This document shows positions 34,673 to 38,365 of a DNA stretch of 64,000 nt, in pieces (the first letter of the stretch is position 1; each line of letters begins with the position of its first letter). A program made the translations under genes and the position numbers. The stretch comes from an uncultured beta proteobacterium. Lineage in GTDB: Bacteria > Pseudomonadota > Gammaproteobacteria > Burkholderiales > SG8-41. The stretch spans positions 1 through 64,000 of the forward strand of contig CAISYC010000071.1 of the NCBI GenBank assembly GCA_903889565.1. The letters run 5' to 3'. The notes under the pieces are model-generated. The model had not been told where the DNA came from. It worked only from the letters and a program-made list of their open reading frames with translations, and made no database searches.

Positions 34673-35038
34673 TTACGCGGCGTTGATGGTTTCGAGCAGC
34701 ACAGCCTTGTTGATCGGTTTGATCAGCAGCGCATCGAAGCCGGCGGCGAGGATCTGCGCCTGTTCGTCTTTCATGGTGTGCGCGGTGTAGGCAATCACGC
34801 GCAGCCCTTTGAGTCGCGCATCGGCGCGGATGAGCCGGCACACTTCTTCGCCCGACATTTCCGGCATGCTGATGTCGAGCAGCACGCAGTCGTAGGTTTT
34901 GGCGGCGAGCATGGCGAGCGCTTGGCTGCCGCTTGCCGCCTGGTCGCATACCCAGTCGGTGCCGCGCAGCAGCACCGTGGCCAGCGTGCGGTTGATCGGA
35001 TGATCATCGACGATCAGAACGTTGCGCGCAGCGGTCAT
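34673..35038 (-). CDS. Stand-alone response-regulator receiver (CheY-like)
   Basis: This 121-residue single REC domain has the acidic pair in VLIVDDHP, phospho-acceptor D55 in CVLLDISMPEM, the T-loop YTAHT and K107 in LLIKPINK. There is no output domain. The ATG overlaps the kinase stop as ATGA at 35035-35038. In hybrid kinases such a domain is fused at the C-terminus; here it is a separate gene at the end of the phosphorelay operon and may pass phosphate between kinase and HPt protein. Confidence 0.9.
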   Translation of the reverse strand: MTAARNVLIVDDHPINRTLATVLLRGTDWVCDQAASGSQALAMLAAKTYDCVLLDISMPEMSGEEVCRLIRADARLKGLRVIAYTAHTMKDEQAQILAAGFDALLIKPINKAVLLETINAA

Positions 35039-36792
35039 GCGACCTCCCGTGCAAAACGGTCGGCGATGCGTCGCCGGATCGGCAGGGTAAAGTAGAAAGT
35101 GCTGCCGGCGCCGGGTTTCGATTCGACCCAGATGCGGCCGCCCATCAATTCGACCATTTCCTTGGCCAGCGCAAGGCCGAGCCCGCTGCCGGCATGCGCG
35201 CGCGTTTCAAACGAATCGCCAAGCTGGCGGAAGCGCTGGAAAAGCTGCGCGCGCTGTTCCTCGGTCAGGCCCTGCCCGGTATCGGTGACGGCGAACACAA
35301 CCCGGCCGCTTTCGACGGCACCGCGCAGGGTAACCGAGCCGCGCTCTGTAAACTTGATCGCATTGTGCACGAGGTTGTTGATGACCTGGGTGAGTTTGGT
35401 CGCATCGCAAATCAGGTGCGCCGGCAGCGCAGCATCGAGCGCGAGTTTGAGTTCGAGCTGTTTGCTTTCGGCAAACGCGCGTTGCATGCCGACGACGCGC
35501 TGCAGCAGCGGCGCGAGTTCCTCCGGTTTGCCGGTGACGTCCATTCGACCCGATTCGATCTTCGCCAGGTCGAGCGTGGTGTTGACCAGACTCAGCAGGT
35601 GTTCCCCGGCGTCGTGAATGTTGGTGGCGAATTCGCGGTTCTCGGCCGACTCCTGGCTGGTCTGCAGGTATTCGGAAAAGCCGAGGATGCCGTTGAGCGG
35701 CGTGCGCAGTTCGTGCGCCATGCGCGCGATGAATTCGGATTTCATGCGGCTCGCCGAGACCGCCTCGCGTTCGCTCGCCGCGAGCGCCGTCTGCACGCGT
35801 TCCTGGTAGCGGATCAGGATCAGCAGCACCAGGCTGACGGCAAGAATCAATGCGCTGGCGACCGCGCCCATCACGCGCATGAAGCGGACGTGATTATTGT
35901 ATTCACCATACACCTCGTCCTCGGCAAATCCGATCATCGCAATCAGCGGGTAATCCCTGAGTTTTCGATAGCTGTAGAGACGGGGCACTTTATCGACGAG
36001 ACTGCGCCAGAAATAGTGGCCGGCGTCGGCGGTTTTTACGCGCTCGAACAGCAGCGACTTGCTGATGTCCTGGCCGACCGTGTTGTTGTCGTCGCTACGG
36101 CGCGCGCGCACAAATCCGTCGGTGCCGACCAGCACGGCGACGCTGGCTTTGCCGGTGTCGAGTGACTTGTAGAACTCGGAAAAATAATTCGGATCCAGGC
36201 TCGCCACCACGATGCCGCCGAAGCTGCCGTCAGGCTTGTTGATGCGGCGCGTGAACTGCACGGACCATTTGCCGCTGGAGCGGCCGAGCACTGGTTTGGA
36301 GATGAAAAGTTTTCCGCTATCTTCGGCCACGTGCACCTTGAAGTGTTCGCGGTCTGCGATGTTCGACGGCGGCAGGTTGCGGTCTGCGGCGATGATGTTG
36401 CCGTCGGGCCCGGCGAGAATGATCAGGTTGAAAAAACGATCGAGGAATACGCCGTGCCGGGCGTAACCGGCAAGATCGAATTTTTTGCCGAGGCGCTCAT
36501 ATTCGGTCTTGACGAACACCGTGGTCTGGTCGAGCACGCGCACCGTGCGCACCGTCTGCTCCTCAAGCAGCCGCGCGTAATTGTCGGCCTGGCGTTCGGC
36601 AACCGCGAGCGCGGTGCGTTTTTCAACCGACATATAGAGGGCGAGGCTGCCCCACAGCACGAGCAGCAGGGCGGCGGTGAGCGCGAGCACCGCGGTTTTC
36701 GGGTTGATATGGTGCCCGAGCCATTCGGACACGCGTTCGAACAGCAGCGCAAAACGGTTGTTGCGCGCAGCGCCGGCGGCGATGGCGGTCAC
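35035..36792 (-). CDS. Membrane sensor histidine kinase with extracytoplasmic dCache-like domain
   Basis: The 585-residue kinase has a first membrane helix (residues 34-54), a periplasmic sensor of about 250 residues containing NIADREHFKVHV and GGIVVASLDPNYF segments typical of PDC/dCache domains, and a second helix (308-328). The HisKA domain has H360 in ARMAHELRTPLNGIL, and the HATPase_c domain has NNLVHNAIKFTE, DTGQGL and GSGLGLALAKEMVELMGG. It has no receiver domain. The start is GTG, overlapping the HPt stop (GTGA, 36789-36792). The dCache domain probably senses a small organic ligand. Confidence 0.92.
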   Translation of the reverse strand: MTAIAAGAARNNRFALLFERVSEWLGHHINPKTAVLALTAALLLVLWGSLALYMSVEKRTALAVAERQADNYARLLEEQTVRTVRVLDQTTVFVKTEYERLGKKFDLAGYARHGVFLDRFFNLIILAGPDGNIIAADRNLPPSNIADREHFKVHVAEDSGKLFISKPVLGRSSGKWSVQFTRRINKPDGSFGGIVVASLDPNYFSEFYKSLDTGKASVAVLVGTDGFVRARRSDDNNTVGQDISKSLLFERVKTADAGHYFWRSLVDKVPRLYSYRKLRDYPLIAMIGFAEDEVYGEYNNHVRFMRVMGAVASALILAVSLVLLILIRYQERVQTALAASEREAVSASRMKSEFIARMAHELRTPLNGILGFSEYLQTSQESAENREFATNIHDAGEHLLSLVNTTLDLAKIESGRMDVTGKPEELAPLLQRVVGMQRAFAESKQLELKLALDAALPAHLICDATKLTQVINNLVHNAIKFTERGSVTLRGAVESGRVVFAVTDTGQGLTEEQRAQLFQRFRQLGDSFETRAHAGSGLGLALAKEMVELMGGRIWVESKPGAGSTFYFTLPIRRRIADRFAREVA

Positions 36793-37166
36793 GATGGCGG
36801 CGCCGCTTCGAGCCGCTGTGTGAGCCAGATGCGCATGCGCGCGACGGCGCGGTTGAACGCTGCGAGATCGATCGCGGCAATCGACTGCGGGGCGTTTTTC
36901 GCCGCCGCTTCGATCGCTTCGCAGGCGGCAACCAGTTCCTGCGCCGCGATGACGCGGCCGGCGCCCTTGATGCGGTGCGCGCAGCGCGCCAGCGCGGCGG
37001 CATCCCCGCGCGCCAGCATGGCGCGCAATTCCTCTTCGTCCGGGCGCAGCGAGTCGCGGAAATCGACGAGTATCGCGTGTTCGAGTTCGGCGCTGCCGCC
37101 GGTGATTTCGCGAAACTGCGCCAGATCGATCGGCAGCGCCATGGCCGGCGCCGCGCCTGCGGTCAT
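36789..37166 (-). CDS. Histidine phosphotransfer (HPt) protein
   Basis: This HPt domain protein carries the phosphorylatable histidine in CAHRIKGAGRVI, the standard AHxLKG-type motif, within a four-helix bundle. I place the start at 37166, where ATG overlaps the upstream EAL gene stop as ATGA, the coupling pattern used at the other junctions of this operon; this gives 125 residues. Starts at 37181 and 37193 are possible but have no ribosome site. It should shuttle phosphate between receiver domains encoded on either side. Confidence 0.85.
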   Translation of the reverse strand: MTAGAAPAMALPIDLAQFREITGGSAELEHAILVDFRDSLRPDEEELRAMLARGDAAALARCAHRIKGAGRVIAAQELVAACEAIEAAAKNAPQSIAAIDLAAFNRAVARMRIWLTQRLEAAPPS

Positions 37167-38365
37167 GCCGGTGGTGTCCATGTTTTCAGCCATGCGTTGA
37201 AAGCGACGGCGTCCATCGGACGTGCCATGAAATAACCCTGGGCTGCGTAGCAACCGAGCGATTTTAGCGTGTTCCACTCGACGCGGGTTTCGACACCCTC
37301 GGCGACGAATTTCATGCCGAGCTTGGCGGCGAGCACGAGGCTGGTCTCGATCATGACGCGCAGTTTTTCCTGGCGGTCGGCACCGGACACAAACGAGCGG
37401 TCGATCTTGAGTTCGGTGAACGGAATGCGCGAAAGCTGCTGCATCGACGAGAATCCGGTGCCGTAGTCGTCGATCGACAGGCCGAAACCCTTCATGCGCA
37501 GGCGCGTCAGGTTTTCAAGGCCGACGCCGAGATCCGACATCGCCGCACTTTCGGTGATTTCGAGCACGACGTGGCGCGGATCGAGTGATTCCTCGCGCAC
37601 CACGGCAGTAATCTTGTCGGCGAGCTTTTTGTCGGCGAGCATGGTCTGCGACAGATTCACCGCGACCGTCAGCGCATGGCCGGCGGCATGCCAGCCGCGG
37701 CAGGCGCGCGCCGACTTGCGCAGCATCAGCCAGGTCAGCGGTTCGATCAGATCGCCGTTTTCGATTTGCGGCAGAAACGCGCCCGGCGGCAGCACGCCGT
37801 CGCGGGGGTGGCGCCAGCGCGCGAGCGCTTCGGCGCCGATCACGCGGCCGTCGGCGAGCGCGATTGTCGGCTGGAAGAAGGCTTCGAATTCGTCGTCGCC
37901 CAGCCCGCATTCGATCTCGTGGCGGTCGTGGTGGACCGGCGCACACGGCGCTGCAGCGGTGGCGCGCTGCGGCAGCTGTAGGTGACGGCCGATCAGTTCG
38001 GCGAGCCGTGCCGGCGTAATCGGCTTTTCGATCGAGCCCAGGACTTGCACGCCGTAGGCGCGCGACATCGATTCGGCCGCGGCAATCAGCGCGTCGTCAT
38101 GGGCGCTGACCAGAATGACCGATACGGCGGAGGCGTTTTCGCCCATGCGGCGGATGAATTCCATGCCGTCCATTTCGGGCATGTCGAGATCGCAAATGAC
38201 CACATCAAGGTGACAGCCGGGGCTCTGCAGCAGCGTCAGCGCGGCACGGCCGTCGCCGGCTTCGGCCACCGACTTGACGCCAAGGTCCTGCAACATGCGC
38301 ACGACACTGCGACGCTGGAAGGCGTGATCCTCCGCCACCAGCGTATTGATTTCAGAGATATCCAT
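37163..38365 (-). CDS. REC-EAL response regulator, predicted cyclic-di-GMP phosphodiesterase
   Basis: The 400-residue protein joins a receiver (phospho-acceptor D59 in VVICDLDMPEMDG, K114 in SIEKPI) to an EAL domain. The catalytic signature is complete: GAEALARW at 178-185, then AVNLSQTML, LEITES, SIDDYGTGFSSM, ELKIDRSFV and FVAEGVET. The enzyme should hydrolyse c-di-GMP to pGpG, under control of phosphorylation. It is the first gene of the operon. The layout resembles RocR/PvrR of Pseudomonas. The start at 38365 begins the receiver; the frame is open to 38437. Confidence 0.9.
   Translation of the reverse strand: MDISEINTLVAEDHAFQRRSVVRMLQDLGVKSVAEAGDGRAALTLLQSPGCHLDVVICDLDMPEMDGMEFIRRMGENASAVSVILVSAHDDALIAAAESMSRAYGVQVLGSIEKPITPARLAELIGRHLQLPQRATAAAPCAPVHHDRHEIECGLGDDEFEAFFQPTIALADGRVIGAEALARWRHPRDGVLPPGAFLPQIENGDLIEPLTWLMLRKSARACRGWHAAGHALTVAVNLSQTMLADKKLADKITAVVREESLDPRHVVLEITESAAMSDLGVGLENLTRLRMKGFGLSIDDYGTGFSSMQQLSRIPFTELKIDRSFVSGADRQEKLRVMIETSLVLAAKLGMKFVAEGVETRVEWNTLKSLGCYAAQGYFMARPMDAVAFNAWLKTWTPPA

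Follow-up and report, generated by a model that had tools for sequence, protein, structure and literature searches.

The window analysed here, a 64,000-nucleotide stretch of contig CAISYC010000071.1 from an uncultured beta proteobacterium (assembly GCA_903889565.1), carries at 34673-38365 on the minus strand a cluster of four genes that encode, in order, a response regulator with a receiver and an EAL domain (REC-EAL), a stand-alone histidine phosphotransfer protein (HPt), a membrane histidine kinase (HK) with a double Cache (dCache) sensor, and a stand-alone receiver (REC). We consider it moderately likely that these proteins constitute a four-protein His-Asp-His-Asp phosphorelay, running from the kinase to REC, on to HPt and finally to REC-EAL. 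The gene order and the encoding of every module as a separate polypeptide, both described in the initial annotation of this DNA, are confirmed by the open reading frames (ORFs) and their Pfam domains, and its claims of intact phospho-sites (H360, D55, the HPt histidine and D59) and of a complete EAL signature agree with our motif and alignment analysis (Table 1). Among the loci examined, only the window has all four components separate, with intact phospho-sites and without a hybrid kinase.

In the proposed path, the dCache kinase would sense a periplasmic signal and autophosphorylate at H360, and the phosphate would pass to D55 of the lone receiver. This receiver would take the place of the one that hybrid kinases carry at their C terminus and deliver the phosphate to H64 of the lone HPt, from which it would reach D59 of REC-EAL and alter cyclic di-GMP (c-di-GMP) phosphodiesterase activity. 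RocR is activated by phosphorylation, and by analogy phosphorylation would activate REC-EAL. We infer each phosphotransfer step and the direction of flow from the observed gene content, the intact sites, the family placement of the kinase, REC and REC-EAL, and the gene neighbourhoods.

Table 1. Genes and key residues of the putative phosphorelay cluster, numbered by position in the window
Feature	Position	Strand	Basis
REC-EAL response regulator, RocR/PvrR-like, 400 aa	37163..38365	-	Pfam, NCBIfam PvrR, RocR 3sy8 match
REC-EAL phospho-Asp D59	38189-38191	-	residue position by motif
EAL motif from E179	37823-37831	-	residue position by motif
Stand-alone HPt protein of 125 aa (start ATG 37166)	36789..37166	-	Pfam Hpt 6.7e-12
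HPt phospho-His H64 (numbered from ATG 37166)	36975-36977	-	motif and alignment
Membrane histidine kinase, 585 aa, GTG start, dCache and HisKA-HATPase, without receiver	35035..36792	-	Pfam
Kinase phospho-His H360	35713-35715	-	motif
Stand-alone receiver, 121 aa, hybrid-kinase-type REC	34673..35038	-	Pfam 4.3e-27, class HMM
Lone REC phospho-Asp D55	34874-34876	-	motif

The kinase exceeds the curated Pfam cut-offs for HisKA (E=1.4e-19), HATPase_c (3.8e-29) and dCache_1_like (1.8e-10), a second cache model, dCache_1, falling below its own (40.8 of 45 bits). Its catalytic motifs comprise H360, N477, DTGQG at 504 and GSGLG at 535. Two hydrophobic stretches (34-52 and 309-327) enclose the sensor, a double Cache; 3lif (6.9e-23) is the one solved structure that it matches by sequence at E <=1. 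With its own genome counted, the kinase has relatives at E 1e-95 in 9 of 74 genomes of the family and 1 of 369 of the class; in the order, 17 of 399 genomes have one at E 1e-100. A quick tree of 97 kinase cores, with support by the Shimodaira-Hasegawa-like approximate likelihood ratio test (SH-aLRT) alone and with some long branches elsewhere, places the window kinase core among 26 stand-alone kinases that form one clade (SH-aLRT 96); every hybrid kinase from a REC-EAL locus (37/37) falls in a separate clade of 62 (SH-aLRT 98). Most of the 25 other clade members align with the window kinase through the sensor region, one of them (L204) being cut by the start of its contig. These 26 loci are not independent, as five come from one genus. 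In 23 of them a REC domain starts within 80 bases of the kinase stop. Within 4.5 kb and on the strand of the kinase, 11 have an HPt, be it a separate protein or part of a hybrid, and in three more an HPt-like protein falls below the Pfam cut-off (E 0.0013-0.0058); for scale, the genome of the window has seven HPt matches in 5.04 Mb. REC-EAL lies within the same distance and on the same strand in four: the window, G051, G451 and G116. Kinase, REC and HPt or HPt-like triads lacking an EAL gene were also seen in other families of the order (L236, L237, L238 and L202); the HPt-like proteins of L236-L238 retain a His but score under the Pfam cut-off, and that of L202 scores above it.

The lone receiver, with D55, T85 and K107, was compared with our own class profile hidden Markov models (HMMs) trained on 65 hybrid-kinase receivers, 112 REC-EAL receivers and 84 other output receivers. 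Five-fold cross-validation assigned 253 of 261 correctly, an optimistic figure given that near-identical rows were kept. The window REC scored 108.4 bits with the hybrid class, 90.9 with the other output class and 45.7 with the REC-EAL class, and is thus hybrid-like by 17.5 bits; the receiver of the window REC-EAL scored 158.7 bits with its own class and 62.1 with the hybrid class. Of the 25 other clade loci, 22 have short stand-alone RECs, 25 in all; 23 of these score as hybrid-like, among them all 22 located next to the kinase. A TAH motif, found in 4 of the 65 hybrid receivers, was dropped as a mark of intermediary receivers. The scores support, but do not prove, the assignment of the lone REC as an intermediary rather than an output receiver, because intermediary receivers, which Bruderlin et al. 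distinguish from terminal ones, are described in the excerpted text as not being one lineage (PMC9981736). Since the kinase groups with stand-alone kinases and the lone REC scores as an intermediary of hybrid type, the cluster would not simply be a cut-up hybrid. An origin by mere splitting of a hybrid kinase linked to REC-EAL was not favoured, the window kinase core lying outside the hybrids in the quick tree.

Judged by its sequence, REC-EAL is a RocR/PvrR relative, not a PvrR equivalog. Both domains exceed the curated Pfam cut-offs (Response_reg, 1e-20; EAL, 7.4e-66), and the best solved match is RocR (3sy8, E 3.3e-76), in which E179, N237, E269, D299/D300, K320, E356 and Q376 each align to the same residue; we take these residues to have catalytic roles. 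PvrR is the best NCBIfam match at 341.8 bits, well short of the equivalog cut-off of 580. A paralogue locus exists in the same genome (contig C27), where a 1200-codon ORF for a hybrid HK-REC-HPt precedes a REC-EAL with 54% identity to that of the window. In the REC-EAL tree, the window protein sits on a long branch, grouped with L044 (support 91/87, not starred).

In an alignment of six HPt proteins, H64 and G68 of the window HPt are among the invariant columns. By BLAST, no other HPt exceeds about 40% identity to this protein over its length. Its origin is not fixed by similarity, because 54 of the 85 HPts compared already come from REC-EAL loci. The same genome has another lone HPt (L212, C62:24649-24897), which pairs with L213 (G005:C52) in the HPt tree (SH-aLRT 99); no kinase was found by our own HMMs in 13 kb around either, and both are putatively orphan HPts.

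To place the cluster among its relatives, we classed 116 REC-EAL loci with our own profile HMMs, 79 from a first set limited to the best 80 of 366 confirmed stretches and another 37 taken from the relatives; the two sets share some genomes (L051 and L185, for example, are identical), and several weaker full-length matches, all below 330 bits, stayed unclassed. No HPt lay within 1.5 kb in 69 loci, a hybrid HK-REC-HPt was adjacent in 32 and a lone HPt in nine (one at a contig edge); the remainder were all-in-one HK-REC-HPt-REC-EAL proteins (four), a REC-HPt (one) and an HPt-REC-EAL fusion (one). For the 64 closest loci (at least 330 bits, window included), the corresponding counts were 26 with no HPt (seven of them contig-cut), 26 with an adjacent hybrid, seven with a lone HPt (window included), three all-in-one, one REC-HPt and one fusion. 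Across the order, REC-EAL matches at E 1e-105 or better occur in 28 of 399 sampled genomes, and a hybrid adjoins REC-EAL in 14 of 21 additional loci from that sample. Within the 64, the window is the only locus where a lone HPt is accompanied by a lone kinase and a lone receiver, both intact. Five of the six other lone-HPt loci have no kinase domain in the available sequence; in the sixth, L044, fragments of a hybrid lie on the strand opposite to REC-EAL, facing it, and a separate ORF encodes the HPt. L044 was ruled out as a second split system, being a broken hybrid beside a transposase-like ORF, with a separate HPt ORF. That ORF (IS30-like by eye) adjoins the broken hybrid kinase at L044 7228-10125, and the metagenome-assembled genome concerned is labelled Bordetella parapertussis, a label that looks doubtful.

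Parts of the arrangement recur in several relatives. Two genomes of the same genus join HPt to REC-EAL, G003 as an HPt-REC-EAL fusion of 528 aa and G013 as an HPt gene followed by REC-EAL with a four-base overlap, and no kinase domain was found in 12 kb at G013. In G051 and G451, from another genus of the same family, the kinase (56% and 54% identical to that of the window), REC and REC-EAL are joined by four-base overlaps, and a hybrid HK-REC-HPt followed by a REC-containing ORF of 222-240 codons lies upstream of the kinase. The full run at these two loci (L177 and L248) therefore reads hybrid HK-REC-HPt, REC-containing regulator ORF, dCache-type kinase, REC and REC-EAL; two kinases may there converge on one c-di-GMP enzyme. 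The G003 fusion and the kinase, REC and REC-EAL runs of G051 and G451, like the hybrid-type score of the lone REC, lend indirect support to the proposed path.

A number of observations weigh against the proposed relay. The initial annotation had let its reading depend on the four-gene order recurring in some relative. This order was seen in no relative examined and only gene pairings recur: none of the 25 other kinase-clade loci has it (the contigs of L204 and L250 end 5' of the kinase), nor any of the 63 other close REC-EAL loci (seven flagged as cut within 1.5 kb) or of the 21 further ones (flanks up to about 1.5 kb). The closest kinase, 78% identical and in the same genus (G005), stands beside a REC, and no HPt or REC-EAL was detected in 19 kb around the pair. 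In another genus, G456 and G454 have the kinase and REC without HPt or REC-EAL in the available sequence, the G454 contig ending at the kinase. The kinase-REC pair need not serve REC-EAL, since in G005 and G456 it stands without it. Three clade loci (L201, L231 and L239) have no REC after the kinase, and L239, the clade mate of G239, has an HPt nonetheless. The G116 cluster (L241 3563-8601: REC-HK, dCache-type kinase, REC, REC-HPt, REC-EAL) gives no support for the same path, and was ruled out as a second full example, because Ser replaces the phospho-Asp in the receiver of its REC-EAL. The HPt says little: its best matches come from REC-EAL loci in 19 of 24 cases (hypergeometric 0.05) and 7 of 10 (0.47), and its tree is poorly resolved, the window HPt falling into an open fork (support 80) with 37 members, mainly HPts from REC-EAL loci. 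Lastly, an earlier receiver classifier, built with an impure output set, left the window REC tied; it was replaced by the cleaner one described above.

These observations bear on three other accounts of the cluster. HPt and REC-EAL might be fed mainly by a different kinase, such as the C27 hybrid, while the dCache kinase and REC serve a separate CheY-like output, an arrangement we think unlikely. The C27 hybrid does adjoin a REC-EAL related to that of the window, genus mates have kinase-less HPt/REC-EAL units such as that of G013, where 12 kb show no kinase domain, kinase-REC pairs without HPt exist, and similar branching appears in the excerpted account of the Pseudomonas Roc system (PMC12051241). 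Against two circuits stand the overlap of all four window genes in one cluster and the contiguity of kinase, REC and REC-EAL in G051 and G451. That contiguity, with kinase and REC-EAL sharing one cluster in all three genomes, would also suit a kinase that phosphorylates REC-EAL directly, with the lone REC and HPt acting as a sink, buffer or branch, and the HPt may not be needed. We judge direct phosphorylation quite unlikely, as the REC-EAL receiver belongs to a different class from the hybrid-type receivers adjoining the kinases, the G005 kinase retains its REC where there is no REC-EAL in 19 kb, and the neighbouring kinases with an HPt in this REC-EAL family are mostly hybrids.

The same four proteins could also run in reverse, the kinase acting mainly as a phosphatase that drains phosphate from REC-EAL through HPt and REC, so that the signal would lower the level of phosphorylated REC-EAL. 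His-Asp relays through HPt can reverse, according to a passage on Spo0B (PMC5898713), and sensors with phosphatase activity are known, for example RcsC in the excerpted description of the Pvr/Rcs network (PMC3842833). The sequence gives no evidence for such flow and the kinase catalytic motifs are complete; we regard it as very unlikely. The forward relay from kinase through REC and HPt to REC-EAL is the reading that we retain.

How the cluster arose is a separate question. The cluster looks like a recombined module of parts that are ordinary in themselves, in which REC-EAL of the Roc kind with an HPt would be run by a stand-alone kinase and a receiver acting in trans; we prefer recombination to plain hybrid fission because the kinase and REC belong to a stand-alone lineage and REC-EAL to a Roc-like one. 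A tentative scenario, to which we give somewhat less than even weight, is a kinase swap: the HPt/REC-EAL half would have lost a one-piece hybrid and been captured by an unrelated dCache kinase with its trans receiver. HPt descent was dropped as support for such a swap, as 7 of the best 10 matches is the chance level given 54 of 85. The lone-HPt state of the window is, on the tree evidence, an event distinct from that of its genus mates: a single REC-EAL clade of the window with L194, L195, L196 and L256, a group chosen after the first tree was inspected, was rejected by the approximately unbiased (AU) test (p 2.5e-5). That the kinase pair was linked to REC-EAL separately in the window and in G051/G451 was suggested by the first tree and not established, common REC-EAL descent of the three being compatible with the data (AU p 0.23). 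If the swap were true, living genomes would hold a series (fused, split, kinase-less and two-kinase) with front ends exchanged, the c-di-GMP output staying constant while phosphorelay front ends change.

The initial annotation gave a four-base overlap at every junction. This holds for HPt/HK (GTGA) and HK/REC (ATGA). The REC-EAL/HPt overlap is unsettled, because the choice of HPt start is open among several in-frame codons: the four-base ATGA overlap arises only with the start at ATG 37166, the alternative ATGs 37181 and 37193 give overlaps of 19 and 31 bases, and a GTG start, the farthest up being at 37277, is also possible. The HK/REC overlap recurs in G005, G051, G451 and five genomes of genus g85, although not in all relatives. 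Such junctions would be expected to favour tight stoichiometry. A sigma-70 promoter scan of 34400-38700 found none (0.6 expected), and the same interval has seven terminator-like sites against 4.2 expected. TctC-type receptor genes flank the cluster (31075-34652), with Pfam TctC in 32104-33711 on the minus strand and 33714-34652 on the plus strand, and a third TctC-like ORF, judged by eye, at 31075-32025 on the minus strand. On the other side, at 38588-40395 on the plus strand, glutaminase, STAS and cNMP-binding domains are spread over three consecutive ORFs (the first matches glutaminase profile positions 1-150, the second positions 152-286 and STAS, and the third cNMP_binding), perhaps one glutaminase-STAS-cNMP gene split by frame changes, or an assembly error.

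Full separation of modules, which the initial annotation took to be unusual, is not so in itself, because two fully split relays are known. One is KinA-Spo0F-Spo0B-Spo0A of Bacillus, whose Spo0B is kinase-derived and not an Hpt-domain protein. The other, Pak-SdrG-PhyT-PhyR of Sphingomonas, resembles the window as a four-step relay of four separate proteins, but its PhyT is described as kinase-derived, unlike the window HPt, and the sdrG and pak genes are scattered rather than held in one overlapping cluster (excerpt of PMC5898713). Neither the Sphingomonas nor the Bacillus relay has a c-di-GMP enzyme as its output, in contrast to the window. The window has the separate kinase, single-domain REC, phosphotransferase and output regulator of a split relay, all with intact sites; its kinase, receiver and HPt are three ORFs, rather than the one polypeptide of a RocS-type system.

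On the output side, the closest likeness is to RocS1/RocS2-RocR of Pseudomonas (and to HptA-RocS4 and RocR3), where the same kind of REC-EAL is fed through a REC and an HPt. There the receiver lies inside a hybrid or unorthodox kinase, whereas in the window kinase, receiver and HPt are three genes; RocS1 and PA2583 have SBP_bac_3 sensor domains, unlike the dCache of the window kinase. The window kinase core also lies apart from the hybrids sampled, the Pseudomonas Roc kinases themselves being outside the tree. A lone Hpt gene is reported beside RocR3 in one strain; in the excerpted text, the authors suppose that it is what remains of an unorthodox kinase since lost (PMC12051241). PvrS-PvrR/RcsC-RcsB of PAPI-1 shares the nearest NCBIfam model, PvrR, and the involvement of an HPt outside the acting kinase; as excerpted, however, PvrS is a hybrid and the HPt that matters is an RcsC domain serving RcsB, unlike the lone HPt of the window (PMC3842833). 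HmrABCX, in the excerpt of PMC11481889, is a hybrid kinase system with two putative HPts that affects c-di-GMP.

The four-gene arrangement was not described in the literature searched by title or abstract opening, a scope that leaves most subscription journals outside. If the proposed path is right, one genome would run two related REC-EAL outputs from different front ends, the C27 hybrid and the three-piece kinase, REC and HPt. Such a pair would be a natural experiment that sets the gains of fusion (insulation and local concentration) against those of splitting (fan-in from several kinases), and would bear on how receivers turn intermediary instead of output. Split relays and REC-EAL relays are each known; the window varies on them by their combination with a stand-alone kinase lineage.

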